From Candidatus Zixiibacteriota bacterium (GTDB taxonomy: Bacteria; Zixibacteria; MSB-5A5; WJJR01): a DNA stretch of 64,000 nucleotides. The notes under the pieces were generated by a model that was not told the DNA's origin, searched no databases, and worked only from the letters and a program-made list of their open reading frames with translations. Numbering within the stretch: position 1 is the first letter of the stretch; each line of letters opens with the position of its first letter. The translations under genes and the position numbers were made by a program. The stretch spans positions 108,581 through 172,580 of the forward strand of contig JBFMGX010000005.1 of the NCBI GenBank assembly GCA_040752595.1, read 5' to 3'. Below are positions 6,471-25,967 of this stretch, one piece after another.

Positions 6471-9422
6471 CTATTTGAGGAGGACCAACGTGCGGATTTC
6501 GGCCGGCCGCCCGGCCATCGTCAGCCGTGCGAAATAGATCCCGGACGCCAACGCACGTCCCTGACCACTGCCGCCATCCCAGTTGAGCAGATGCCGACCG
6601 CTCGGGAGAACGCCGTCGACCAGCGTCGTGACATGCCGTCCGAGAACGTCTACGATCTCCAATCGCACCGATTCCTCACCGGAACCCGCAATGGTCACCG
6701 GAATGGTCGTCTGAGCATTGAAGGGATTCGGGTAGTTGTGACCCAAGGCGAAGGATGGGGGAGGCTCGATGTCGCCACCATTGTCACCGATGCCGCTTGT
6801 CCTCAGCCAGCGATCGCGGGCGGTCCCTGATGCCTCTGTGAAGGACTCAGTGTTCGGAGCAACAATGAAGGCCACGGCCACGACCAGGGACTCGCCGGCG
6901 TTCACAGTGACCGGCGCCGTGGCCAGTGCCGCCAGGTAGTCCCCTGCCGTTGTCGGCGCTTCGGAGCTCCCCGGCGCCATGTCGCCTCGCTTCACGGCCT
7001 CCGTGAGCGCGAGCTTGCCGCCGTACGGGTTGGCGAGGAACCGACGCGCCGAGAAGGCAGCATTGATCGGGGTCAGACCGGCGACCGCCTCCGAGTTGTC
7101 GGTACCGTGATAGACGCCGCCGGACGCAGGATCGTGGTGGACGCGTTCGTCAATCGCTCCACCGACCCCCGGAATGTCGATGTCGAGAAGCCACCCGATT
7201 TGCAGCCCCTGGATCACCGCTGCCGTGCGGTTGTGAATCGTCCAAGTCACGGTCACGCACTCAGCACCACTGCTGTCGCGGCAGTACTCGGCCGACGGCG
7301 ATACGAGCACACCAACCGGCCAAGCGGCCCGACTATCATCGAATTGCAGAGTCGAAGTACTGGCCGCCGCAACGCCTTGGGATCCCGTCACCGGCGAGAA
7401 ATCGAAGGGTGATCCCCCGTCGCTCCGACGCGAGGCATCGGCGAATCCGCCGCTCTCTGACGCGACCATCAGGGCCGCCTCGTAGAGCAGATTGCCGCTG
7501 AAGTGTTGCGCGCGCCATCCCGAGCCGCCGGCATCGAGACTTGAGCCGGGACCGAGTCCGAGCTGCCCGATGTTCGAGAGCGACATCCCCATTGTGCCGT
7601 CGCCGACGTGCTCGATCACAGATCCCGCCGGTAATCCACACGGCACGGCAAATGTGTCGACCCAGTTCCCCAGGTGCGGATCTCCGGTCAGGGACAACTC
7701 GAAACGGATCGAGTCCCCTGCTCGCATGCCCGCCGGAACGGAAACGATGAACGGGGCATAGGCGTTGTCGACGGTCAGTCCCACGGGAAGCGTATCGAAG
7801 CGCGCCGTGTCTACCGGCAACATGACACCCGGAGTCATAGAGCAGAGCCGGGCCTGAACGTGCGCGGCTTCCGCCCCGGTGGCGACCAGTGACACGACCA
7901 GTGGACCGGTCTCGCCGCGCGCCAGGATCTGATCACCGGTCGCATCGGGCGCGACCGTGGCGACAATGATGGTCGGAGCCACCGCCGCAGGCAGGGCGGC
8001 GAGCGCCGCTCCCAAGTCCAGCATCCCGTGCCCGGAGGCGTTATCTTCACCAACCGGATCGACATCACGGGCCGTCGCCATGAGGGCTGTCTTGATCTCC
8101 TCCGGCGTCAGGTCCGGGTTGTACTGGCGCAGGAGGGCCACCGCCCCGGCCAGATGCGGGGCCGACATCGAGGTCCCACTGATCAACTTGTAGGATTGCC
8201 CTTTGTAGGCCGAGCGGATGTTCACACCGGGGGCAACCAACTCCGGCTTGACCGAGACGCCATCGCAGGCCGAGGGACCGCGGCTGGAGAACGGAGGCAC
8301 AGTGAGAACGGGCGTGGTCGCGTCGACCGCTCCGATCGAGAAGCACGAGGTGGGCGACACCGCACGGTCGGCCGGATTGCGCAGTGACATCGAGTATGGC
8401 CCTTCGTTCCCGGCGGCAAACACGCAGACGATTCCCATCGCCTCGACATGATCGATGGCGTCAAAGAACAGCGAGTCGCATGCATTGATGATCTGTTGCG
8501 AGACGCCCCAGGAGTTGCAGACCACGTCGGGGACATCGGCTGTCGTGGCCGGATCACCATCGGGATCGGCGACCCACTCCAGTGCGGCCAGAATATCGGC
8601 AAAGGTCGCCGACAGAGAGCGCCCGCGGTCGATCACGGCGGCGTTGATCCACTCGGCATCCGGAGCCATGCCGATCGTATCGGCGCCATCGCGCCCCACG
8701 GCGATTCCCATGACGTGCGTGCCGTGGCCGTTGTTGTCGGCCGGCACTGGCGTGTGGAAGGGATCGAACCAGGCGGCAGCCGTGTCACCGTGCATCCCCC
8801 GCCAGCGATCCTTCAAGGCCGGATGGCTCCCCTCCACACCGGTATCGATCGAAGCCACGAGCCGACCGCGTCCGGTCAACCCCCGCGACCAAAGGGCACG
8901 CGCGCCCACGACCGCCAGGTTTTCCTGCGCACCGACAGCGGCCGCCGTGGCATCGGTGACCGAAACCGGCCGCATCAACTCGACCGCGGGATTCAGACTA
9001 ATCGCCGCAACGTCATCGCGTTCGGCGAGGGTGAGTAGAGCGGGGAGGTCGGCGCGGACGTGGAGGGCATTGGTGATCCAGAAGCTGCTGATGAGCGTGG
9101 CGTGACCCGGCAGCGATGCGATTGCGGCTGTGAGTCTGGACTGTGTGTGCACGGCCTCATCGTGAAGAAGGACGCCGACGCGGGCATGCCGTTCACCGAG
9201 ACTGCGCGACGCCGACGCGGCGAGCGTGAGCTTTTCACCCGACTTGCGCGATCCGCGCGGCGCCACCAGGAGATCAAAGGTCGCCGTCGATGACGCCTGG
9301 GAAAGCGCCGACACCAACGACGGCGTCAGAACGGACAACTGGCGGGGTGATAATTCCCCGGCCGCAAGGGACGCCGACCATGCCATCAGAGACGCTAAGA
9401 CTGGGATCGTGACGACTTTCAT
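6471..9422 (-). CDS. Secreted subtilisin-family (S8) serine protease with C-terminal sorting-type domain
   Basis: A 983-aa exported endopeptidase. A signal peptide (about residues 1-22, ending ASLAAG) is followed by an inhibitor-like prodomain, then the S8 domain with Asp in SIDTGVEGSHP (about 193), His in NNGHGTHVMG (about 233) and Ser in SGTSMSAPHLAG (about 418). A long beta-rich region follows. The last ~85 residues carry the FlgD-like pattern: LGHNYPNPFNAQTT, VLGRHVTTLVDG, WDGG, SGIYFARL and a final LVLLK. This tail resembles type IX secretion-type C-terminal domains, so surface delivery is inferred. The ATG at 9422 is chosen over an in-frame TTG three codons upstream. A sigma54-like element lies at 9440-9455. 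Confidence 0.93.
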   Translation of the reverse strand: MKVVTIPVLASLMAWSASLAAGELSPRQLSVLTPSLVSALSQASSTATFDLLVAPRGSRKSGEKLTLAASASRSLGERHARVGVLLHDEAVHTQSRLTAAIASLPGHATLISSFWITNALHVRADLPALLTLAERDDVAAISLNPAVELMRPVSVTDATAAAVGAQENLAVVGARALWSRGLTGRGRLVASIDTGVEGSHPALKDRWRGMHGDTAAAWFDPFHTPVPADNNGHGTHVMGIAVGRDGADTIGMAPDAEWINAAVIDRGRSLSATFADILAALEWVADPDGDPATTADVPDVVCNSWGVSQQIINACDSLFFDAIDHVEAMGIVCVFAAGNEGPYSMSLRNPADRAVSPTSCFSIGAVDATTPVLTVPPFSSRGPSACDGVSVKPELVAPGVNIRSAYKGQSYKLISGTSMSAPHLAGAVALLRQYNPDLTPEEIKTALMATARDVDPVGEDNASGHGMLDLGAALAALPAAVAPTIIVATVAPDATGDQILARGETGPLVVSLVATGAEAAHVQARLCSMTPGVMLPVDTARFDTLPVGLTVDNAYAPFIVSVPAGMRAGDSIRFELSLTGDPHLGNWVDTFAVPCGLPAGSVIEHVGDGTMGMSLSNIGQLGLGPGSSLDAGGSGWRAQHFSGNLLYEAALMVASESGGFADASRRSDGGSPFDFSPVTGSQGVAAASTSTLQFDDSRAAWPVGVLVSPSAEYCRDSSGAECVTVTWTIHNRTAAVIQGLQIGWLLDIDIPGVGGAIDERVHHDPASGGVYHGTDNSEAVAGLTPINAAFSARRFLANPYGGKLALTEAVKRGDMAPGSSEAPTTAGDYLAALATAPVTVNAGESLVVAVAFIVAPNTESFTEASGTARDRWLRTSGIGDNGGDIEPPPSFALGHNYPNPFNAQTTIPVTIAGSGEESVRLEIVDVLGRHVTTLVDGVLPSGRHLLNWDGGSGQGRALASGIYFARLTMAGRPAEIRTLVLLK

Positions 9423-9439
9423 TCTATCCAAGACTCGAG

Positions 9440-12396: not shown

Positions 12397-12417
12397 CCAG
12401 CCGGATGAAGACGAAAG

Positions 12418-12447
12418 CCCCCGGGTTGGCAGCCTGCCACCCGGGGG
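12418..12447. terminator. Bidirectional terminator between convergent genes
   Basis: GCCCCCGGGT...ACCCGGGGGC forms a long, near-perfect stem. Read on the minus strand it is followed by TTTCGTC. It sits 22 bases after the glycosyltransferase stop and 27 bases after the stop of the convergent lipoprotein gene, so it can end both transcripts. Confidence 0.75.
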
Positions 12448-12473
12448 CGCGAAGTGAGTATCTGTCGATTGAA

Positions 12474-14594
12474 CTACGACTGGCTGAAGGGCAGGAAGAA
12501 CCACTCGGTCATCTTGATGAAGACCTCTTTCGCCTGCTCCTGCTTGATGAAGTACATCGGGAACGAGAAATACGCCGTCTTGTAGAGTGGTGCCGATTTG
12601 CTGGGGCCGACCATACGGACGGCCACGACCTTCTCGTGTGAGAACGACGCCCCGCCGCCAGGCGGAATCGGCCCGAGCGGACGCCAGCTTTGGAATACAT
12701 AGAGCGGCGACGAGCGCGCCCCGCGCACCAAGAAATCGACATCGGGGACGCCGACTGCAGCGAGGCAATTCTTGGAGCCACACAGGTTCACCTTGAACGT
12801 TGCCGGCAAATACATGCTGTCGATCCGCTCGTGGTCGACCTCCAACATCGTCGGCAAACCCGTTCCGGCCGGCGCGACCAGACGCGCCCCAATGAACTCA
12901 TCGTTGCTTGCCGGCGGCAATGGATCCTGCTGGTTGATCGGAATGGCAACCCGCTGCCAACCCGGATAGTACATCTGTTCGATGTCGAAATACTGACATG
13001 ACAACGGCCCCGTGTAGAACGGAGAAGTCTCACTGCACAGGTCCATCAGCATCGACGGACAGCCCTGACAGATCTCCGTAAAGGGCATGAACGTGTGTCG
13101 GCCGATAATCCAGAGCATCCCGCCGGCGTCCAGGTAGCGACGCAGCACCGCCTGAAGGCTGGGCTTTTTCCAAGGCGGGCTGATCGGATCGATGACATCA
13201 TCGCTCACCTGGATGACGAGACGATGTTGCGCCAGCATCTCGAGCGAGAGGTAGTTACCACAGCGCACCAGTTTTGGATCAGGGCAGTCCTGTTCCGGCG
13301 GCGGTCCGGCATTCCGCCACCACCAGTCTTCGAGCGTGTCGGCCTGGGCATTCGGCTCGCCGGTCTGGATGGCGGCCTGTTTGTAGGCGGCCTGAAGCAT
13401 CTCCACGAGGAACGCTTGGTTCGCCATGGGTGAGGCCTCTTGCGACTTGGTCGACGGATTGGTGAGGGCATCCGTGCCGTACCACGTGTCGTCGATCATC
13501 ATCACCTTGCGCTCGAACTTGGGGTAGATGGCCTTGAACGTGGCGATCGCCGGTGTCTCATCGGCGATGAAGGCGTCATCCCGCGCCCGCACAACAATGG
13601 AGAACCATCCGGAGCGCGTCCGTGTCGTGTCATTGAGTGGATCGGGCTGCCGGTCGGCGACACGCCAGAGGTTGTAGACGTATGTCGCTGTGTCGATCAC
13701 CCAGACACCCTGAAGGGTATCCGGGTTCCTGGACTCCCAGACCGGTTCCATCCCCAGCGTATCATCCAGAGTCGGAGGATGGTCGGCGATGTACGGGTAC
13801 GGTCCGAACACCCGCCAGTGGAATCTCAGATCCGGAGTCGTCGGCGGACGAAAGTCGAGGTTATCGGATCCGTCCCAGTTCAGTCGGATGCCGGAGTACG
13901 CTCCGGAGAGCCGCGGCAAAGAGATGTACTCCGTCACGCGGTCGAAACTGGACGGGATCTCGGTATCGGGCCAATGGTTGCGACGCGTGAACGAACGGTA
14001 CTTGGTCTTGGAGGTCGCGCCCCGGTCATCGATGGCGCGGAGAAACATGTACTGCGGGATCGTATCGGAGACGCAATCGACCGGTATGACCGAGTCGCGT
14101 GTGGCCCCCGAGATCGGATCCTGGACCTGAATCGTCTGCGAATCGCAATCGGCGATCAACGGCGATGCGTACAGTTTGACACGCTCACGGGTCGGATGGG
14201 TCACCGAATCGCTGAAGATCGAGATCCACCGTGGGTACTGGTCATTGAGCACGAACGCGATGAACTTGTCGACCGCGGGGAGATTCCCCGGCAGCGTCGC
14301 CGCCACGCTGTCGACTTGGGACTCGAGCACCACCGCATAGTCGTAGCGCACGATCCGCCCGTCGTTGTCGGTCCCATACCAATAGACCATGGGACTGGAG
14401 CCAAACTCCGTCCGGTCAGGCGGGACGTTCACCAGGAAGACCTCCGGCGGGTCGTTTTCCCCCGGACCGCCTTTATTGTCCAGCGTCCCGCAACCCAAGG
14501 GCAGCAGAACCGCCAGGGAAAGCCCCAAGGCAACTCCCCAGAGGAACAGGACCGATCGTCCTCTTCCGGCCAGTGTCCGATTCACAGAGATCAT
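12474..14594 (-). CDS. Large lipoprotein of unknown function (last gene of the TonB/PorV cluster)
   Basis: A 706-aa protein with a signal peptide and lipobox LLPLGC (Cys about 35), so probably lipid-anchored to the envelope. The mature N-terminus has a fibronectin-like stretch (YWYGTDNDGRIVRYDYAV), repeated later as FSIVVRARDDAFIADE-type text. From about residue 365 a Rossmann-like region appears (KVMMIDDTWYG, later HRLVIQVSDDV and LDAGGMLWIIGRHTF), reminiscent of GATase-like or ThuA-like modules. No catalytic triad could be assigned. GGAGG lies ten bases upstream of the ATG. It follows the PorV-like gene by 29 bases and is clearly in its operon. No recognised family name is claimed. Confidence 0.75.
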   Translation of the reverse strand: MISVNRTLAGRGRSVLFLWGVALGLSLAVLLPLGCGTLDNKGGPGENDPPEVFLVNVPPDRTEFGSSPMVYWYGTDNDGRIVRYDYAVVLESQVDSVAATLPGNLPAVDKFIAFVLNDQYPRWISIFSDSVTHPTRERVKLYASPLIADCDSQTIQVQDPISGATRDSVIPVDCVSDTIPQYMFLRAIDDRGATSKTKYRSFTRRNHWPDTEIPSSFDRVTEYISLPRLSGAYSGIRLNWDGSDNLDFRPPTTPDLRFHWRVFGPYPYIADHPPTLDDTLGMEPVWESRNPDTLQGVWVIDTATYVYNLWRVADRQPDPLNDTTRTRSGWFSIVVRARDDAFIADETPAIATFKAIYPKFERKVMMIDDTWYGTDALTNPSTKSQEASPMANQAFLVEMLQAAYKQAAIQTGEPNAQADTLEDWWWRNAGPPPEQDCPDPKLVRCGNYLSLEMLAQHRLVIQVSDDVIDPISPPWKKPSLQAVLRRYLDAGGMLWIIGRHTFMPFTEICQGCPSMLMDLCSETSPFYTGPLSCQYFDIEQMYYPGWQRVAIPINQQDPLPPASNDEFIGARLVAPAGTGLPTMLEVDHERIDSMYLPATFKVNLCGSKNCLAAVGVPDVDFLVRGARSSPLYVFQSWRPLGPIPPGGGASFSHEKVVAVRMVGPSKSAPLYKTAYFSFPMYFIKQEQAKEVFIKMTEWFFLPFSQS

Positions 14595-14623
14595 TGTGTC
14601 TCATCCTCCGAGGGACGTGCCCC

Positions 14624-15577
14624 TCAAAAGTCCACGGTCATCGAGAATCGATGGATCTGGTCGAGCGCGCCGAAATCCTGATAGCCATAGTCCAACCGGG
14701 CCGCCAGCTTCCCACCCAGCGCAAAGTGCACGCCGCCACCGAACGTGACGCCGCCGAGATCATGCTCGAACCGGTGGCCGATTCGCAGAGCCGCCAGATT
14801 CCGAAACATGTATTCGAAGCCGGTGTTGTACTTCTCGCGGTTATCGGCCGGATGGGCCCCCTCCAAGGCGAAGACCGCGTGATGCTGCGGGTTGTCGAGA
14901 ACGTCAATGGCACCACCGAACCGGAAGCTGATCGGCAGTGGATACGGCTGTGTGATGAACTTCATGTCCGGCCCGAAGTTCGTCAGCGTCATGACGATCT
15001 TGAAGTTGCGGAAGCCGGTATTGTACTGCGTGCCGACGTCCGCGGCCCATCCCGTGGAGCGCTCTTCCTCAAAGAGCTCATCGATGATCTTGACGGTGCC
15101 GCCGACGGAAAAGCGATCGGTCAAATAGCGGCCATACGAGAGCGACACCGCATAGTCTCTCGCCGTGAAGGTCCACCCGGGAGCGCCCATCTCGTACTCC
15201 GGCGTCGTGACCGGCATGTCACCGGCATCGAGGCCATAGTACGCCACCCCGAAGACGCCGCCGAACGCGACCGGCCAGGCAAGACCAACGAAAGAATAGC
15301 TGATGTCGGCCGGATAGTCGATCAATGAGACCATCACCTGTCGGTGATCCAGTTGGACCAACCCGGCGGGGTTGTAGTAGATCGCCGAGGCATCGTCCGC
15401 GATGGCGGCGAATGCCCCGCCCACGGCATCGGCGCGGGGCGAAACTCCGACTTCCAGGAACTGCGCCCCCGTGGTGCCGACCTTGTCCTGTGCACGGGCG
15501 GAACTGGGAGCTACGGCCAGCGACACGCACATGGCCACGACCCCCGCCCCGCCAATCAACCGTCGTCGCAATTCCAT
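14624..15577 (-). CDS. PorV/PorQ family outer-membrane protein (UPF0164-like)
   Basis: A 317-aa predicted outer-membrane beta barrel with a signal peptide ending SSARAQ. The N-terminal block TTGAQFLEVGVSPRADAVGG, followed by AFAAIADDASAIYYNPAGL, is the diagnostic signature of the PorV/PorQ family, and the C-terminus ends in alternating strands and a final Phe. In Bacteroidetes PorV shuttles type IX secretion substrates to the surface attachment complex, so a similar role for the adjacent sorting-domain protein is inferred. The ATG at 15577 has GAGG upstream; the longer frame has no ribosome site. Confidence 0.88.
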   Translation of the reverse strand: MELRRRLIGGAGVVAMCVSLAVAPSSARAQDKVGTTGAQFLEVGVSPRADAVGGAFAAIADDASAIYYNPAGLVQLDHRQVMVSLIDYPADISYSFVGLAWPVAFGGVFGVAYYGLDAGDMPVTTPEYEMGAPGWTFTARDYAVSLSYGRYLTDRFSVGGTVKIIDELFEEERSTGWAADVGTQYNTGFRNFKIVMTLTNFGPDMKFITQPYPLPISFRFGGAIDVLDNPQHHAVFALEGAHPADNREKYNTGFEYMFRNLAALRIGHRFEHDLGGVTFGGGVHFALGGKLAARLDYGYQDFGALDQIHRFSMTVDF

Positions 15578-15631
15578 ATCACATTCCTCACGTCTGCTTG
15601 CCGGCCCCAAATCCGTCGCGGTGCCACACTG

Positions 15632-18286
15632 TCACTTGATGATCACGATCTTGCCCACTTGCGAACCGAGACGCGAATCCACCTTGTAGATGTAGATCCC
15701 CGATGCCACGGCCTGCGTGTTGCGCGACACCAGGTCCCAAGAGATCTTGGACGGGTACTCCGACAGGTTCTTGTCCGGGTGATCCAGGGTGCGCACCAAG
15801 TCACCGTCGAGCGTATAGATGCTGATCGTCGCCGTGTCGGGGAGATTGATGAAGTGGATGCGCCGGTCACGCTCATCGAGCGGCTGACCCGACGATCTCT
15901 GGCTGGCCGTGCCCTCGTACCCCTGCTCGAAGTAGCTCGTGCGACGTCCGTCCGGTCCCACGTATGAGATCTTGTACGGATTGGGGTACGCCACGACCTT
16001 CACCGAATCCCGTTTGACGCCGCCGGAATCCCAATAGGCCTGTACGACGTCCGACGAGTAGATCGGAATGCCGTCGGTGCGGCACTGCCCCGGCGTCGTC
16101 TCCAACGGCGGCAGACTCTTCACCGGATCGCCGAAATCAAACGTCGTGACGGTCACGAAATAGTGTTTGGCGGGCAGAAGATTCGACAGGACGACTTCAT
16201 AGTCGCCATAAGTCCCCAAGTCGGTGTTGTAGACGGCCACGCGCTGGATGAGGTTCTTCACGGTGTCGCCGCCCACGACAAACTCATTCGCCATGTTGTA
16301 GTCCTGCGGGGCGAAGTAGGCGCACTTGTCGACTCCGGGCTCGGTGGAATCTGTATAGTGATAGCAGGTCGCGAATGAGGGAGCCGCATGGGCTTCGGGA
16401 TCAAACGTCGGGTCGTTGAATTCCGTGCGCCATTCCTCGAGCGTGTGCGGGGAGCCGGTGACGGACCATTCGAGTTTTGCGGGGTCCCACGTGTAGCGAC
16501 GGAAATCGACCTTGTCCCAACTGGCCAGAAGGGTGTAGTCCTCAGCCGACGGGACGTCGTCCTTCGAATTGCGCTCGGCGTAGTAGACCTTGTATCCCTC
16601 GAAATCCTGCGTCAGCGTCTGGGCATCGGTGGCCAACTCCGATTGGGCCCCCGACCAACTCACCACGAGCTCCTTGGGCCGTGAGGCCAGGGTCAGCGCG
16701 GCGCACGGCGGGGCGCTCGGGCCGCTGAAGTCCGGACAGCCGTCACCCGTGTAGTACACCCGCTCATGCGAGATCGAGTCGACGAAGTACTCGCCGCGGT
16801 ACCCCGCGGGATCTTCGTCGGTATCGACACCGAAGTTGTCAAAGACGAACCCCGCCCACCACGCGTTCCGCGCCAGATCGCTGAAGTACAGCTTGCTGTA
16901 GTACGCCTCGGGACGACTGGCGTCGAGCCTCTTGGTCGGGTCCCGGTGCAGACTGTCACCGGCAATCAACGCAAAAGTCAGTGGGACGGTTTCGCCGGGA
17001 TTGAGCACGGGGACCGGTCCGATCGCCAACACGCTGCGTGTATCGAGCCCGTCGGCGAGATTGTTGGCGGAGGGTGACGGCGGCTTCCATCCCTCGGCGG
17101 TATAGTTGATCGCACTGAACAACTGGCCATAGTCGAGTTCGTTATTCGACATATAGTAGTATTTCGCGCGGTCGCTGGAGGGTGTTCCATTGCCGCCATG
17201 ACCCAGGCCGCGCAGATCATCCAGCCGCCGGGGGCCCCAGTCGTTGACGGCCGTGCCGTCCGACGTCCACCAGTTGAATGTCCGGTGCGTCCCCGCCGGC
17301 CCGCGGAGTATGCGCAGCCCCATGACGCCGATGCAGGAACCGCGTGTGTACCGCCCGCCGCTGGGGTCGCCATCGTTGTCGGCGGCCCACGCCATGTCCA
17401 ACGTATCCAGATATGTGGGGCTCGTCGGATTCGGCCAGGTCCTCAAGAAACCGGAGATGTCGTCCGTGGCGTCGCCGGCCCCCTGCGTCTGCCACACGTC
17501 ATTGTCCATGAAGACGCCGAGCCACATCTTCTCGATGGGATGGTCGGTGATGTTCTTGATGGCGCAATCGACAATGACAAAACGTTGCGAGTACGTGTCG
17601 GACCCGGCGTGCGAGACTTGCGAGATTTCCAGCCCCATGGGCAGGTGAAGTCCCTGCCGCTCCGGATCGCCGGTGGCCGCCAACACCAGAGTGTCATAGA
17701 AGACGCAACCGCGAACCTGCGCCAGGGCCTTGCGCTTAAGGCCGAGGAACTCCCACAGACTGTCCTCCTTCGGCTGGCAGCCCAGCGGCGTGTGATCGGG
17801 GGGCAGACTTTCGGCCATGGGCGCAAACCCCCAGAGCTCGCCTCCGAAACCGGCCCATCCCTCATGGCCCAGACTCATGAGCGTGTCATTGCCGATGATC
17901 CCTCCGATCCATAGCGAACCGGTGAACAGGTAGTCGAGTCGCGATCCACCGGGAAACTCGAACGAGGGCGTGTAACTGAGCTTCAGCAATCCCTGGTCTC
18001 TGGGATCGAGGAAGAACCCCCCATGGTTGGAACCGAATCGCCCGTCGTTCGAGATCGTCGCCCAGATCTGCCCGATGTAGTGCGCCCGACGCGATTCCAC
18101 CAACGCGGCGGGTCGTGTCAGTTCCTGACGCCCCTTCAGGTCGGGAGACAGAGTCGGCGGGTTGTCCACGGCCATGGCCGGGACTGACACAATGAGGGCC
18201 GACATGAGAATGCCGCAGGCGACCTCGAACCAAAGCCGCCGTCGTGCGCGCCACGTATTCACAGTCCACGTCTCTGACACCATCAT
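15632..18286 (-). CDS. Large secreted protein with C-terminal FlgD-like sorting-type domain
   Basis: An 884-aa exported protein of unknown function. The start ATG at 18286 follows GGAG by five bases; the signal peptide has an unusually long n-region and ends VSVPAMAVD. The body is beta-rich and aromatic, with no enzyme motif seen, and includes a fibronectin-like stretch near LVVSWSGAQSELATD and another near KHYFVTVTTFDFGDP. The C-terminal ~100 residues carry VVAYPNPYKISYVG, HFINLPDTATISIYTLDGD, WDLVSRN, ASGIYIYKV and a final GKIVIIK, the same kind of tail as in the other exported proteins here. It lies 37 bases after the TonB receptor and 54 before the PorV-like gene. Confidence 0.85.
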   Translation of the reverse strand: MMVSETWTVNTWRARRRLWFEVACGILMSALIVSVPAMAVDNPPTLSPDLKGRQELTRPAALVESRRAHYIGQIWATISNDGRFGSNHGGFFLDPRDQGLLKLSYTPSFEFPGGSRLDYLFTGSLWIGGIIGNDTLMSLGHEGWAGFGGELWGFAPMAESLPPDHTPLGCQPKEDSLWEFLGLKRKALAQVRGCVFYDTLVLAATGDPERQGLHLPMGLEISQVSHAGSDTYSQRFVIVDCAIKNITDHPIEKMWLGVFMDNDVWQTQGAGDATDDISGFLRTWPNPTSPTYLDTLDMAWAADNDGDPSGGRYTRGSCIGVMGLRILRGPAGTHRTFNWWTSDGTAVNDWGPRRLDDLRGLGHGGNGTPSSDRAKYYYMSNNELDYGQLFSAINYTAEGWKPPSPSANNLADGLDTRSVLAIGPVPVLNPGETVPLTFALIAGDSLHRDPTKRLDASRPEAYYSKLYFSDLARNAWWAGFVFDNFGVDTDEDPAGYRGEYFVDSISHERVYYTGDGCPDFSGPSAPPCAALTLASRPKELVVSWSGAQSELATDAQTLTQDFEGYKVYYAERNSKDDVPSAEDYTLLASWDKVDFRRYTWDPAKLEWSVTGSPHTLEEWRTEFNDPTFDPEAHAAPSFATCYHYTDSTEPGVDKCAYFAPQDYNMANEFVVGGDTVKNLIQRVAVYNTDLGTYGDYEVVLSNLLPAKHYFVTVTTFDFGDPVKSLPPLETTPGQCRTDGIPIYSSDVVQAYWDSGGVKRDSVKVVAYPNPYKISYVGPDGRRTSYFEQGYEGTASQRSSGQPLDERDRRIHFINLPDTATISIYTLDGDLVRTLDHPDKNLSEYPSKISWDLVSRNTQAVASGIYIYKVDSRLGSQVGKIVIIK

Positions 18287-18323
18287 CCGTTCTCCTTCAA
18301 TGCCTTCCACGGCCACGGCCCGA

Positions 18324-21300
18324 TCAGAAGTTCACGCCCACGCCCACACGAACCTGGCGTCCCTCGCCCCAGTTGCGCGGATCAGGATCGCGTTCGCTCA
18401 GATAAATGACTCCCGGCCCCTGATTTTCGCCGGTCTCGGGGCGACCGGTCGCGGTGTAGACCGTCTGAATGTCGCGGTTGTCGAACAGGTTGTATACCCA
18501 GATCTCAAACGTGTAGTCGAGGCGGCCGAACTTGAAGTCCTTGTTGAACCGCAGATCGACGTTGCTGTGAGACGGGAAACGCTCCGAATTCGTCAGCGGG
18601 TCCTCGCCGCCGACCAACGTGCGTCGCACACCGGGATGGTCCTTGTCCGGCGTGTAGGGGAATCCCGAACCGAACTGCCAGAAGACGTTGAACCCGAAGT
18701 TATCGGGAATCCGCAAACCGAACAACTTCGGGTGGTCGCGGGCGGGAACGCGGACGTCGAGAATCAGGGTGATTTTGTGCCGCTCGTCCCAATCCAGCGG
18801 AAATTCCTGGATGCGGAAGCGGCCCCCGGTCCGGGCATAGAAGTTCTCAAAATAGTCCAGCGCTTCCGCCGACGATTTCCCGTAGGCATACGAGAAATTG
18901 TAGGTCATCGACCCGGAGACATAGTTGCCGTATCGCTTCTCCAGCTCGAGCTCCAACCCGCGGGCGCGCGAGTAGTCGGAGTTCTCGTAGTAGTTCCGTT
19001 CCAGACGGACGCCGATCTCCTTGGACTCGCTGACGCGACCGAAGTCGTCCGTGTAATACCCTTGGATCGACAACAAGTATTCCGGTGTCAGCATGTATTG
19101 CACGCCGAACTCGTACTTGATCGTCTTCGCAAAATCGAGGTTGACGTTGCCAAAGGTTCCCGTCACCGAATACAGTTGCGTTGAGCGACGGTACATCTGG
19201 TAGAGCTCGGGCAACTGGTAGAAGTGGCCGTAGTTGAAGAACACCTTGGCCTTGTCCGAGATGGGATAGGAGAAGGCAATGCGCGGCGCAAACTTGTCGC
19301 GATAGTCCTCGACACGACCCGTGTCTGAGAACAGCACGCGCGCCGACTCCTTGGCACCTGCCGATTGCACAAAGAACTCGTAGCGGAACCCCGCTTGGGC
19401 GATCATCTGCCCGTACTCCATCTTGTCCACGACATAGAAGGCCCCGGACTTGGGGGTCTGATGGTAGAAGTCGCGCACCGAGCCCCGTCCGGGGTAGGGC
19501 CCGCCGTCGTTCAGCGCGTTCACGTCGTACACGTAAGGCTGAAGCAGCTCATCGAATTTCAGGTCATAGGCCGAGTACGTCATGCCGACTTTGACCTCGT
19601 GCTCCCGACGAACCTGGCTGACCAGATCGACCTTGAGCGTCTTCGTCACCGGTGTGCGCACGTGCCAGACCGCGTCCTCGTCCCAGCCGTAGTCGTAGAA
19701 TCCCTCGGCGGCATCCCGACGCCCATTGCCGTTCCGGTCATAGTAGGGCTCCCCTTCATTATAATAGGCGTCGATGTTGGACCACTGTCCCGAAGGCGGC
19801 GTCGCGCTCGCGTCGAACGTCTCGTTCTGATTCAGGTCACGGAAGGGCACACCCGGGACCCACGTATCGCCGGGACTCTGGTACTTGCCGTCATACGAGA
19901 GATCCTCGAACGGCTCACCGAGGGGATACCCATTGATCGCCCCCGGCCCGTCCCAGACACCATTGTGGTTGACATCGGTGTATGGCTCGCCCAAGGACTG
20001 ATCGCCGTCAACGAACGGTTCCGGACGGTCGTTCGGAGTGCCTTCGACGGCATACGACTGGAGCTCGCGTCCGGGATCGTACATCCCATTGCGGTTACCG
20101 TCCAGGGTCAACAGGTCACCAACGTCGTATTGTCCGTTGTTGTTGGCGTCCATGAACTGCTCGCCGCTGTTGAAGTCGTAGCGGCCGTTGCCGTTGAAGT
20201 CATAGACTAGGCTGTCCCCGAGGAGTGGATCATCCTGCGGAGGCGGATTGAACACACCGTCCTCATTCCGGTCGAAATAGATGTCGCCGAAATTGTACCG
20301 CCCGTCGGGGTAGCTATCGACCCATTTCTCGGCCGGATCCCAGCGACCATTGCCGTTGCGGTCCAGATACTGGTCGGACTGGCTGGGGAACAGGAAATCG
20401 TCGGGATTCATCGTTCCACCCTGATCGGTGGGATCGCCGGGCCGCTGCCAGTAGTAGCGCGATGAGCGGGACATCAGGACCTCGTAGTAGGTCGAGGGAC
20501 CGAGGTTGTGCGTCCAGCGCAGACTGTAGGCATCGTTGCGATCTTCGATCCAAGGGTGGCTGTTGGGTGTGTACCGGTAGTTCCAACTCAGGGTGTTCGA
20601 CGACTGGGCGCGCTCGTAGGAACGCTTGAAGATACCGGTCATGCGGATGTCCGGATGCAACCGGTAAGTCAGCTTCACGAGGGCATTCCCGGCGTTTTCC
20701 TGCCGGTCGGGGATGATCATGCCGAGGAACTTCGTATTGCGATAGGTGGCCCGTGTGCTCGACGTCGTGTAGCGATTGAACCAAGTGTAAGTGTCGGAGC
20801 GGTCGAAGTCGAAGCTCAGAAAATACGAGAGCTTGTCGGCCATGTTCGGCAGACCGAGCTGGGGCAGCAGACGGCGCGTGATCAGCGGTTCCGGACCGCC
20901 CAAAGTGAACTCCAAGCGCTGGTAGTTGAAGGAATACTTGTTGAGCTTGTTGCTGCCGAAGTTGTCGGTGAAATACTGCACGTGCCCCTGCGTGACCGTA
21001 CGGTCGCCTTCTTTGGTGGACACGTTCACCAAACCCGACGTGCCGCCGTACTCCGGGGACCATGCCCCCTTCACGACAGACACGTTTTCGATCTCTGTCC
21101 CGGAGAGGTTCAACGAAGCGGTGGCGCCGCGGCCCCCCAGGGGGTCGGACATCGAGACGCCGTCCACCGTGTAGATCAATTCGGAGGAACGGCCCCCGCG
21201 GATATGGAAACGGTCATTGCGCACGGTGACTCCCGCGGTGGTCTTGAGGATATCGCCCACGTTCACCACGGGCATGGTCTTGATCTTTTCGGCGGTCACG

Positions 21301-21728
21301 TCACGCTTGGTCGAGGCCTGGTCCATCTGGATCATGTCTTGCTTGCCGATGACCTCGATCGGTTTGAGCTCGACCGCGCTCTCTTCCATCTCGAAATTGA
21401 CGTTCGTCGTCTGGTCGGGCTTGACGGTGACGTTACGGACGATGACGGCCGTCCGTCCGATCAACTGCGCCTCCACCGAGTGCTCTCCCGGGGGCACGGC
21501 CAGGATCGTGTACTTCCCATCCACGTCGGTCTTGGCGCCCAGAGTCGTGCCCTCGATCACCACCACGGCACCGGGAATCGCTTCCTTGGTTTTTTTGTCC
21601 ACCACGAGACCGGCGATCTTCCCAGTGACGCCCGCCTGCAGCGGTTCTGAAATGAGTAGGACCGCCAGCGCGATCAGACCCCAGCTCGCCAAAGTCCCGC
21701 CGCAACGCTTCATCCTGCGTTGGATCAT
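18324..21728 (-). CDS. TonB-dependent outer-membrane receptor with inserted calcium-loop-like repeats
   Basis: A 1134-aa receptor. GGAGG eight bases before the ATG at 21728 sets the start. Signal peptide to about residue 33, then a carboxypeptidase-regulatory-like beta domain (GKIAGLVVDKKTKEAIPGAV ...), then the plug domain with GDILKTTAGVTVRNDRFHIR, GGRSS and YTVDGVSMSDPLGG, then the barrel. Between about residues 445 and 685 lies a hydrophilic insert with about nine Asp/Asn-rich repeats of the type DxNGNGxxD (first LDRNGNGRWDPAEKW, last YDRNGNGRRDAAEG). These resemble dockerin or thrombospondin-3 calcium loops and are not usual in this family. The receptor is first in the operon with the sorting-domain protein, PorV-like protein and lipoprotein. 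The ligand is unknown. Confidence 0.9.
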   Translation of the reverse strand: MIQRRMKRCGGTLASWGLIALAVLLISEPLQAGVTGKIAGLVVDKKTKEAIPGAVVVIEGTTLGAKTDVDGKYTILAVPPGEHSVEAQLIGRTAVIVRNVTVKPDQTTNVNFEMEESAVELKPIEVIGKQDMIQMDQASTKRDVTAEKIKTMPVVNVGDILKTTAGVTVRNDRFHIRGGRSSELIYTVDGVSMSDPLGGRGATASLNLSGTEIENVSVVKGAWSPEYGGTSGLVNVSTKEGDRTVTQGHVQYFTDNFGSNKLNKYSFNYQRLEFTLGGPEPLITRRLLPQLGLPNMADKLSYFLSFDFDRSDTYTWFNRYTTSSTRATYRNTKFLGMIIPDRQENAGNALVKLTYRLHPDIRMTGIFKRSYERAQSSNTLSWNYRYTPNSHPWIEDRNDAYSLRWTHNLGPSTYYEVLMSRSSRYYWQRPGDPTDQGGTMNPDDFLFPSQSDQYLDRNGNGRWDPAEKWVDSYPDGRYNFGDIYFDRNEDGVFNPPPQDDPLLGDSLVYDFNGNGRYDFNSGEQFMDANNNGQYDVGDLLTLDGNRNGMYDPGRELQSYAVEGTPNDRPEPFVDGDQSLGEPYTDVNHNGVWDGPGAINGYPLGEPFEDLSYDGKYQSPGDTWVPGVPFRDLNQNETFDASATPPSGQWSNIDAYYNEGEPYYDRNGNGRRDAAEGFYDYGWDEDAVWHVRTPVTKTLKVDLVSQVRREHEVKVGMTYSAYDLKFDELLQPYVYDVNALNDGGPYPGRGSVRDFYHQTPKSGAFYVVDKMEYGQMIAQAGFRYEFFVQSAGAKESARVLFSDTGRVEDYRDKFAPRIAFSYPISDKAKVFFNYGHFYQLPELYQMYRRSTQLYSVTGTFGNVNLDFAKTIKYEFGVQYMLTPEYLLSIQGYYTDDFGRVSESKEIGVRLERNYYENSDYSRARGLELELEKRYGNYVSGSMTYNFSYAYGKSSAEALDYFENFYARTGGRFRIQEFPLDWDERHKITLILDVRVPARDHPKLFGLRIPDNFGFNVFWQFGSGFPYTPDKDHPGVRRTLVGGEDPLTNSERFPSHSNVDLRFNKDFKFGRLDYTFEIWVYNLFDNRDIQTVYTATGRPETGENQGPGVIYLSERDPDPRNWGEGRQVRVGVGVNF
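19690..20385 (-). repeat. Array of DxNGNGxxD-type coding repeats inside the TonB receptor
   Basis: About nine imperfect repeats encode acidic loops with D/N at positions 1, 3 and 5 and D/E near 9-12, such as DFNGNGRYDFNSGE, DANNNGQYDVGD and DVNHNGVWDGPG. The ligand spacing fits EF-hand-like calcium loops. They occupy roughly 230 residues in what should be an extracellular part of the barrel. Confidence 0.75.
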
Positions 21729-22037
21729 ACCGATATCCTCCCGGCGCGAATCACCGCCGTCCAAACCTCATTGCTTACCCAAGCATGACCTGCCGCAATG
21801 TCCGGCCCAGTCTCCATTCCCCTGCCCGACCCACCATGATGGCCGAAAGGCGGCCCGCCCGGCGGGAGGGCGAAACTCAAACTTGTTCTGCCATTCGACC
21901 TTAAGTCAAGGAGAAACGCCTCCATCCCATGCGCGGCGGGCTGGCTCACGGACATATTGCCAAGCCTGCGCCGCGGCCTGCCTCCCCACCCCGTTATTCG
22001 CGACGGCGGCCAATATTCCCGCGCCCCGCGTGTTTTC
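21729..22037. other. Spacer upstream of the TonB cluster
   Basis: About 309 bases with no supported gene. It includes a sigma54-like promoter (21794-21809) 66 bases before the TonB receptor start. The remainder, up to the lipoyl-ligase-like gene, shows only short GC-rich inverted segments. Confidence 0.55.
21794..21809 (-). promoter_or_regulatory. Sigma54-like promoter for the TonB/sorting-domain/PorV/lipoprotein operon
   Basis: The minus strand reads TGGGCCGGACATTGCG. GG and GC are ten bases apart and TGG..C...TTGC agrees with the consensus TGGCAC-N5-TTGCW in eight of ten key positions. The expected transcript start near 21783 leaves a 55-base leader that contains the good ribosome site. 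A sigma54 activator gene lies 1.3 kb away (23013-25967). Confidence 0.5.
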
Positions 22038-23012: not shown

Positions 23013-25967
23013 TCAGTCCGTATCGATGTCGTAGATCTTCATTTTCAGCCGCAGCGTCGATTCGGGAATGTCCAGCCGTTGCGCGGCATGCTTTTTCACG
23101 CCGCCGCACTCCCCAAGAGCGCGGACGATGAACTGGCGCTCGATCCGGGCAATGTGATCGTAGAGGGAAAACCGTTCCGGCATCGGCTGGGCGGCGGGAA
23201 CCGACCCTGCGGGCGACTCCTCGGCGAACTTGCGCGAGAGACGATCCGGACCGATGACCGCTCCGGGCTCCGCCAAGAGGACCAGTTTGCGGATCTCGTT
23301 CTCCAGCTCACGCACGTTTCCCGGCCAGTGGTAGGCGCAGAGGACGCGTACGACCTCGGAAGACAACCGCACCGTCCGCCCCGTCTCCGCCGCTATGCCG
23401 TCGAGGAAGTGATCAATGAGCAGCGGGACGTCTTCACGGCGCTCGCGTAACGGCGGCAAGACAAACACCAGCGGCGTCAGGCGGTAGAAGAGATCCCGTC
23501 GGAAGGTGCCGCGTTCCATCTCCTGCGTCAGGTTCCGGTTGGTGGCCGAAATGACACGGACATTGACGGGACGCGGCTTCGTGTCGCCCAAGCGGAGCAC
23601 CTCTTTGGTTTCCAAGAGGCGCAACAACTTCGCCTGAATCGACAACGGCATTTCGCCGATCTCGTCGAGGAAGAACGTGCCGCCGTCGGCTTCTTCGAAC
23701 AGTCCGATCTTGTCGCGATCCGCCCCGGTATACGCCCCGCGTCGGGCACCGAACAACTCGCTCTCCAGCAGCGTTTCCGGCAGTGCCGCGCAGTTGACCT
23801 GCACGAATCGTTGATCGCGTCGATTGCCGGAGTAGTGGATGGCACGGGCCAACAGATCTTTGCCCGTTCCGGTCTCGCCCTGCAGGAGGATAGAGACATC
23901 GGCATCGACGATCAGCCGGGCCCGGGCCAAAATCTCCCGGAACGCCGCATTCTGCGTGATGATGCTGGGGAACTCGCACTCCCGCCCCAATTGGTCGCGC
24001 AGCCGTTGCACATCACGAAGCAATCCCTCGGAACGCAGCTTCATGGAACGCCAGGCGACGATCTCCGCATACGCCACCGCGAAATCGAGATCGCGGGGGC
24101 TGAAACCCGATTCTGAGTTTGCGGGTTCTTCGGCGATGCGATCGAGATAGAGAATCCCGGACGAGGCCGGCCCCAGCTCGACGGGGACCGAGATCACCGA
24201 CACCGGTGATCGACCGGTTTCATCGACCAGATGCGCCGTCAATTGCGGCGAACCAAGGAGAGACCAATGATAGCGTGGTTGATCGGTGGGCAACTCACGC
24301 TGATAGGCACTGGCCGCGAACGCCGCCACGCGCTGCGCGAAACCCTCGGAGCCGCCCGATTGTGCCACGACGCGGCCCGACCGCCGCCCGTCGGCGGTCA
24401 CTTCCAATAATAGGACACGCGAGGCGTTCAGCCGCGTACGACAGAATGCGATCGTCTGTTGCAGATCGTCGCCGGCGCTCTCGGCATGGGCCGCAGCGGC
24501 GAGCGACTCGGCCGTCCAAGGCATACCCACCAGGCGGAATTCATTGCGGGGTGACGTCGCGTGGCCGACACAATCCCCGTCCAGACCGGCGACCAATTCA
24601 CGCATCCGGTCGGGAGCGGCGCCGTTCGTGGGCATCGCCGCGATCAACCGGCGGGCCAAGGCGACGGCTTCAGTGATCTGCCCAGCACGGCGATAGCTGT
24701 CCACGGCAAGCCACTGTACATCGGTGATGTTGTCCGTGGCCCCGAGACGTGAGTACAACTGCACCGCTTCGTCCAGAGCGGCGGTCGGCGCTATATGGTC
24801 GGCCGGGGAAACCAGTGCCAGAACTTCCGAGCGGGCGATCGCCAAACGCGCACGTTCGTAGACATCCCCCACGAAGGTGAGGCACTCGGTCGCTTTCGCC
24901 AGTGTCGCCCGACTGTCGGTGTGATCACCGAGACGCGCCTGCGCGCGCGCCAGCACGCGGTACAGACAGCCGACCTCGGCGCGATCCCCGATCGCGATCG
25001 CGACAGCCAATCCCTGCTCGGCCAGCCGTTTGGCCTCCGGCCAATCCTGAAGGGCCGCTTCGCACTCCGCCAAGCCGCGCAGCGATTGCGAGACCATGTC
25101 ATTCTCGTCACTCAGACGACGGCCGATCTCCAGCGCGCGACGGAATGCTTCCTTGGCGGCGATCCAGTGTTTTTGCTCATACTGCCACCACCCGGAGTAT
25201 TCGAAATAGACTGCACGCTCGCGCACCAGGCCGGCATCTTCGATCACGGTGAGCGCCGCGTCCAACTGCGATGACGCCGCGCGGAAATCGTGACGCAGGA
25301 TGGCCAGGTACGCCATGGACAAGAGGTTGCGCCCAATGGACACACGATTGCCGGCCGACACCGCGCACTGATGGGCCGCCGACAACGCCTCTTGTGCCTC
25401 CGACCATCGGCCCTGCAGCAAGCAGACACGACCAGCATTGCCGAGGAGCATCGCCTCTTTTTCGGCGTCCTGCCGGCGACGCGCAATCTGGATGGCGTCA
25501 CTCAGGAAATCGTCGGCCGCCTCATACTCGCCACGGACAAAATGAATGCGCGCCAGTTCATTGTAGGCGCGCATCATCCCTGACTCATCGTCCAGGCGGC
25601 GGTAGATCGCCAGTGCGTCGCGGGCATGGATACGGGCGTTCTTGGTATCACCCAGCCCGAGGTAGGCCAGACCAAGAACGCTGTGTGCATCACCGAGGAA
25701 GTCGTCGGCCGCCGACGCTTGGAAGGCGATCAGACCGCGGCGTCCCCAATCGACGCCGTCCCGATACTCACCTGTCTCCGCCGCCAGCCGGGCCCGAAGC
25801 AGGCACCACACACCGTAGTCGGGTGACGAGCCCTCGCGGAGAGACTCCTCCCGGTGCACCTCCAGCAAGGCGGCTGCGGACGGCCAGTTCTTCTCGTCCA
25901 GCAAGACTTGGACCTGACGGAGCGGCGGACGCGGCATCACCGCGTCGTGGTGAGGAAGGGGCTTCAT
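23013..25967 (-). CDS. Sigma54-dependent activator with N-terminal TPR repeats and GAF domain
   Basis: A 984-aa enhancer-binding protein. Residues about 10-430 form roughly ten TPR helical pairs; about 470-650 is a GAF-like sensor; a short coiled coil follows. The AAA+ domain (about 665-895) has Walker A GETGTGKD, the sigma54-contact loop as GAYTGA (Phe replaced by Tyr), Walker [18 protein letters not shown] and the arginine-finger region FRRDLFYRL. The C-terminus is a Fis-type helix-turn-helix ([20 protein letters not shown]). There is no receiver domain, so the signal likely enters through TPR or GAF. The start lies 15 bases after the stop of the 113-aa exported peptide gene, in the same operon. 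Confidence 0.93.

Follow-up and report, generated by a model that had tools for sequence, protein, structure and literature searches.

In Porphyromonas gingivalis, the barrels PorV and PorQ retain PorU and PorZ, which are exported by the type IX secretion system (T9SS), on the cell surface (PMC5562754). In Flavobacterium johnsoniae, type A cargos are said to pass via PorV without exception, and type B cargos have SprF-like barrels encoded directly downstream (PMC12618676); barrels of the PorP type are the anchors of type B cargo (PMC9143113). The order of substrate gene and then shuttle gene is established for type B cargo/SprF pairs (PMC12618676, PMC9143113), and the rule stated for Bacteroidota is that type A tails share one PorV, with PorP/SprF proteins as the dedicated shuttles for type B (PMC12618676). 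Here we describe a four-gene unit from a genome of Zixibacteria (FCB group; 2.94 Mb assembly GCA_040752595.1, 50 contigs), located at positions 12418-21809 of a 64,000-nucleotide stretch of contig JBFMGX010000005.1, referred to as the window. Because the layout of this unit is like that of type B pairs, whereas its barrel is of the PorV/PorQ family, its cargo tail is type A-like and a TonB receptor is included, we propose that barrels of the PorV family would form cognate cargo–shuttle pairs linked with TonB receptors. We give this variant mode of cargo anchoring in the T9SS about an even chance of being correct. A literature search found nothing on T9SS in Zixibacteria in the literature covered and, among titles and abstracts, nothing relevant on PorV–TonB operons.

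Gene order of the unit and its recurrence

The four open reading frames (ORFs), re-read here from the sequence, all lie on the minus strand and encode, in order, a TonB-dependent receptor (TBDT), an exported protein with a sorting domain (SORT), a PorV/PorQ-family barrel (PORV) and a predicted lipoprotein (LIPO). The gaps between them, counted from stop codon to ATG start, are 37, 54 and 29 bases. Genes and short gaps alike are where an earlier annotation made from the letters alone, hereafter the sequence-only reading, had put them.

Conservation was assessed in 133 Zixibacteria genomes, 79 of which were good; the data are mostly metagenome assemblies, and beyond Zixibacteria the search covered a plasmid collection only. 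The LIPO alignment was poor in conserved stretches, and PORV was taken as the distribution key instead. Eighty loci were fetched independently of the LIPO survey, and since PORV was the search key, the counts of TBDT and LIPO in this set are unbiased. In 74 of them PORV has a TBDT on its upstream side; five of the remaining six are at a contig edge, which gives 74 of 75 testable loci. LIPO is the next gene downstream of PORV in 75 of 75 testable loci, the other five being at a contig edge. Forty loci from the LIPO survey show the order TBDT-(SORT)-PORV-LIPO wherever the contig is long enough, the exceptions being a solo LIPO copy (L116) and a locus without TBDT (L094). The constant core of the unit is TBDT-PORV-LIPO, and SORT is its variable part.

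The receptor–cargo–barrel part recurs with other cargos. Further operons of the type TBDT-cargo-PorV lie in this genome on contigs C44 and C45; their cargo differs from SORT and has a body unrelated to the SORT body. Among 20 paralogous loci fetched by the C44/C45-type cargo alone, a TBDT stands directly upstream in all 20, and in 18 the next gene downstream is of the PorV family; of the two remaining loci, one is at a contig edge. The same order is found on plasmid pRMAR01 of Rhodothermus marinus, where the receptor RMAR_RS14120 is followed by RMAR_RS14115, a hypothetical protein of 1132 residues in the cargo slot, and by RMAR_RS14110 of the PorV/PorQ family (216 bits on the PorV family model, over the cut-off). 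In a single-sequence comparison, strong similarity between RMAR_RS14115 and SORT is confined to the final 80 residues (E 2e-15). A shuttle gene directly behind the cargo, as in type B pairs, is present in the window, on C44 and C45, in Rhodothermus and in those 18 paralogous loci. The recurrence with other cargos and in a second phylum suggests that the receptor–cargo–barrel part is a general, undescribed surface module.

Type IX machinery is encoded in the same genome. SprA scores 635.6 bits on TIGR04189 (cut-off 200) and the sortase PorU 572 bits (cut-off 420), both over curated cut-offs, and SprA is found in 79 of 79 good genomes. PorU is followed on contig C4 by a 909-residue ORF that begins and ends with PorV-type stretches (L040:9189-11918), and an inactivated-M6-like T9SS cargo lies next after this ORF. 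PorP/SprF (PF11751) gave no match in the genome; across the survey, PF11751 exceeds its cut-off in 14 of 133 genomes, in most of them narrowly. The sequence-only reading had named two results that would speak against it, namely homologues that are mostly scattered and a genome devoid of type IX machinery. Neither was found for the unit, because its gene order is kept throughout the phylum and recurs in paralogous loci, and SprA and PorU are present.

The same comparison bears on the idea that the genes are neighbours by chance, or by virtue of a shared location, without joint function. The wider neighbourhood is conserved as well: a lipoyl-ligase-like gene (LPLA) lies upstream in many LIPO loci, in some of them preceded by REGU, and a convergent gene for a membrane/tetratricopeptide repeat (TPR) protein, PMTT, lies downstream of LIPO in many. 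In the window, REGU (23013-25967) adjoins LPLA and encodes a 984-residue regulator with TPR, sigma54-activator and Fis-type parts, the orthologue of which stays close to the unit in many genomes. However, gaps within the unit are mostly tens of bases or fewer in very diverged genomes, whereas flanking gaps vary, and the trio is found again at other genomic sites and in a second phylum. Chance co-location is highly improbable and already largely refuted.

The SORT family and its tail subtype

SORT (15632-18286, minus strand; 884 residues) is an exported protein of a multi-copy family and ends in a T9SS-type sorting domain (residues 805-884; 15632-15874, minus strand) of the subtype GDLV...SRN..SGIY..GKIVIIK. 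The FlgD-like tail that the sequence-only reading had seen in this protein was confirmed, though it stays under curated cut-offs, with 15 bits on PF18962 (Por_Secre_tail) against a Pfam cut-off of 27; it also has weak matches to the NCBIfam models of PorU and PorZ. Two tail profiles were used, the first made from SORT tails only and the second with the Rhodothermus tail added. The SORT-only profile gave 24-65 bits on the 20 paralogous cargo tails and 81 on the Rhodothermus cargo, against 14-29 bits on the other T9SS-type tails encoded in these loci; the weakest paralogous tail (L230, 23.6 bits) falls within the range of these other tails. With the second profile, nine loci of the genome score 45-133 bits and the next best 23.6; seven of the nine belong to the SORT family, and the other two are the operonic cargos encoded on C44 and C45. 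Judged by these profiles, all operonic cargos, whether SORT, paralogous or from Rhodothermus, carry one tail subtype.

Foldseek searches with the structure model of SORT (predicted local distance difference test, pLDDT, 75) returned GH116/GH94-type enzymes at probability 1.0. The TM-scores of about 0.2 and the partial alignment mean that the resemblance concerns part of the SORT chain at most, and identification of SORT as a glycosidase was rejected. PorU (E 3.5e-6) and PorZ (E 8e-4) were also returned, with low TM-scores.

The SORT family is present in all 133 genomes, usually in several copies each. Three copies of the genome under study (C4a, C4b and C11a; L043, L039 and L041) are 92-93% identical in residues 471-799 and 99-100% in their tails but only 40-46% in residues 60-470, as if variable heads had been swapped onto, or had diverged from, a homogenised constant tail. 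In the receptor tree, one clade has SORT in the operon in 23 of its 24 rows and the other in 0 of 45, so that two changes explain its distribution. In the clade without operonic SORT, SORT genes lie elsewhere, often in tandem arrays (two to five genes in the arrays examined), some of which adjoin a pair of M16 peptidases. At L207, L213, L214 and L216, 3-4 tandem SORT genes stand beside genes of 712-714 and 501-503 residues, and at L207 both of these neighbours are M16 peptidases. In many assemblies (L088-L092, L098, L099) the contig ends just upstream of PORV or LIPO; SORT repeats, with their alike 3' ends, are probably the cause of such breaks in several of them.

This distribution raises the alternative that TBDT-PORV-LIPO is a SORT-independent core machine of the outer membrane, serving transport or biogenesis, and that SORT is a passenger that joined or left once. 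The three genes are near-universal and remain together in the SORT-less clade (45 of 45 tree rows), and LIPO is mostly a single-copy gene with conserved flanks. Such a machine would, however, leave unexplained the cargos with the same tail in the same slot of the paralogous and Rhodothermus operons, and the PDB match of PORV is PorV, not BamG, whose family model it does not match. We consider this alternative rather unlikely.

Other candidate cargos were noted in passing. In the genome that also holds L151, a gene interrupted by a run of N (L094:9221-12043) has a SORT-type tail at its end and no match to the SORT profile in its first 675 residues; it lies ahead of PORV-LIPO, has no TBDT on its upstream side and is perhaps a swapped cargo. 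Positions 6471-9431 of the window encode an S8 subtilase of 986 residues with a FlgD-like tail slightly below the cut-off, likely a T9SS cargo.

The barrel, the receptor and the lipoprotein

PORV (14624-15577, minus strand; 317 residues) passes the PorV/PorQ family model NF033709 with 198.4 bits (cut-off 90), in agreement with the signature noticed by the sequence-only reading, and stays below both equivalog cut-offs (PorV, 50 against 250 bits; PorQ, 111 against 220). Its profile finds the solved F. johnsoniae PorV in the PDB (E 6.5e-22). Pfam matches are to Toluene_X and PorV, in the FadL superfamily. Alternatively, PORV could be a FadL-type channel that lets a hydrophobic ligand through, in a plain uptake operon, with the canonical PorV after PorU handling the SORT tail. 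The superfamily membership fits this explanation, as does the separate PorV-family gene after PorU on contig C4, which reaches 176 bits on the PorV equivalog model compared with the 50 of PORV. Against it stand the clear membership of PORV in the PorV family and the tail subtype, which follows TBDT-PorV operons and not canonical cargo, and we judge the explanation improbable.

An assignment of PORV and LIPO as BamG and BamH was considered, given a FadL-type barrel and a lipoprotein found phylum-wide, and was rejected on the basis of family models and the PDB profile; the BamG model NF053685 gave no match to PORV at E up to 0.1. The best BamG candidate here is a 544-residue FadL-type protein on contig C47 (L051:7683-9317), with 58.9 bits on NF053685 (cut-off 250) and a match to chain F of PDB 9hjm (E 1.3e-3). 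As to a single origin of the operonic PORVs, the PorV tree gives no resolution. At L047, L048 and L041, other PorV-like genes come directly after large exported proteins with FlgD-like tails, which makes these loci possible further cargo–barrel pairs with different tail subtypes.

TBDT (18324-21728, minus strand; 1134 residues) comprises a signal peptide, a CarboxypepD-reg domain, a plug and a barrel. PF13715 (CarbopepD_reg_2; 64 bits) and PF07715 (Plug; 48 bits) are both over cut-off, so that the plug and N-terminal carboxypeptidase-like domain of a TonB-dependent receptor are present, and the position of the gene is conserved. On the SusC-type model TIGR04056 it scores 69.8 bits, far below the cut-off of 368. 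The calcium-type insert of the sequence-only reading corresponds to residues about 456-672 (19713-20363, minus strand), predicted to be extracellular, with seven DxNxNG loops; shuffled versions of the protein average 0.27 of the D/NxD/NxD/NG motifs counted. At least five calcium-type loops occur in 31 of 31 TBDT orthologues, and none in the paralogous receptors TBDT44/45 or in the Rhodothermus receptor.

LIPO (12474-14594, minus strand) is, as had been read before, a predicted lipoprotein of 706 residues; Cys35 is invariant in 41 orthologues, and the structure model (pLDDT 85) has an immunoglobulin (Ig)-like N-terminal part and an alpha/beta C-terminal part. A single-sequence search found orthologues in 112 of 133 genomes, among them 71 of the 79 good ones. 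No Pfam or NCBIfam family was matched, SusD families included, and the Foldseek matches, none of them a close homologue, were limited to Ig-rich proteins and, weakly, enzymes of the dimethylformamidase type; a SusD-like identity was rejected on these results.

The strong terminator expected downstream of the unit was borne out by a terminator-like hairpin after LIPO (12417-12448, minus strand; fold energy -31 kcal/mol in a 75-base stretch), which a convergent plus-strand gene shares. The expected sigma54-like promoter was upheld as a sequence, TGGGCCGGACATTGC upstream of TBDT (21795-21809, minus strand), but not as a functional site. The window holds three copies of the pattern, where 0.96 would be expected, and such sites upstream of 73 orthologous receptors are hardly enriched (52% against 38% in shuffles). 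Sigma54 control of the unit was rejected, the site being neither conserved nor clearly above chance.

The proposed cognate pairs in relation to known systems

Based on these data, a simple model would have SORT leave the cell via the T9SS translocon SprA. PORV, encoded alongside, would collect and hold the C-terminal domain of SORT in the manner of PorQ-PorZ or SprF-SprB, and would be the cognate partner that shuttles and anchors proteins with this tail subtype, probably serving the solo SORT copies too. Export by the T9SS and pairing of cargo and PORV are what we infer from tails, gene order and recurrence; binding of the C-terminal domain and retention on PORV would follow from them. One step further, SORT held in a complex beside the calcium-loop TonB receptor might capture or process a ligand for the receptor to import, with LIPO presumably a further partner of the module. 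The wider proposal is tentative and doubtful: that pairs of a PorV/PorQ barrel with one tail subtype would form an energised uptake complex with the TonB receptor, a T9SS-based counterpart of SusCD that is general in Zixibacteria, is present in Rhodothermota and has exchangeable cargo bodies.

Several findings weigh against the proposed pairing. The operon is without SORT in about half of the phylum, where TBDT, PORV and LIPO remain, and PORV may therefore have another job. In one genome (L094/L151) TBDT is truly missing upstream of PORV, and one paralogous locus (L242) is genuinely without an adjoining PorV. In the PorV tree, the PORVs from the two kinds of operon fail to group as a single clade, other PorV-like genes stand behind cargos with different tails, and the SORT tail scores 19.9 bits on TIGR04183, below the NCBIfam type A cut-off of 23.

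The sequence-only reading had described a self-contained unit for one dedicated surface protein. Its account holds for gene order, paralogous repeats and T9SS machinery. A single dedicated cargo does not fit a protein that has five further full-length copies and one fragment in this genome and is missing from the operon in about half of the phylum, and "self-contained" is too strong a term because export would still depend on SprA, which is encoded elsewhere. If cognate cargo–PorV pairs are real, the rule of one PorV for all applies to no more than a part of the FCB group. For many uncultured genomes, the partner receptor of an exported protein could then be predicted from its tail subtype together with the neighbouring barrel. 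Because R. marinus, which has the trio, is in culture, the dedicated-pair idea is testable.

Among known systems, BamG-BamH of the Bacteroidota BAM complex (PMC12611786) likewise combines a FadL-type barrel with a surface lipoprotein and is widely conserved, but PORV lacks a BamG match, no BamH appears for LIPO among the Foldseek matches listed, and the C47 protein is a better BamG candidate than PORV. PorU-PorV and PorQ-PorZ of P. gingivalis (PMC5562754) are alike in that PorV-family barrels hold T9SS-exported surface proteins, and PORV is closer to the PorQ than to the PorV equivalog; here, in contrast, the barrel is operonic with a TonB receptor, the cargos are neither PorU nor PorZ, and nothing points to a sortase function. 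Type B cargo with PorP/SprF, as in SprB-SprF of F. johnsoniae (PMC12618676, PMC9143113), shares the FadL-superfamily barrel gene directly after the cargo, several cargo–barrel pairs per genome and orphan cargos that could share a shuttle, and differs from the present unit, which has a PorV/PorQ barrel, a FlgD/type A-like tail and a TonB receptor in the operon. Finally, SusCD and RagAB also combine a TonB receptor with a neighbouring partner predicted to be on the surface, and a SusCD-like uptake role is plausible; here the receptor is far under the SusC cut-off, LIPO falls outside the SusD families, and a T9SS tail replaces the lipid anchor.

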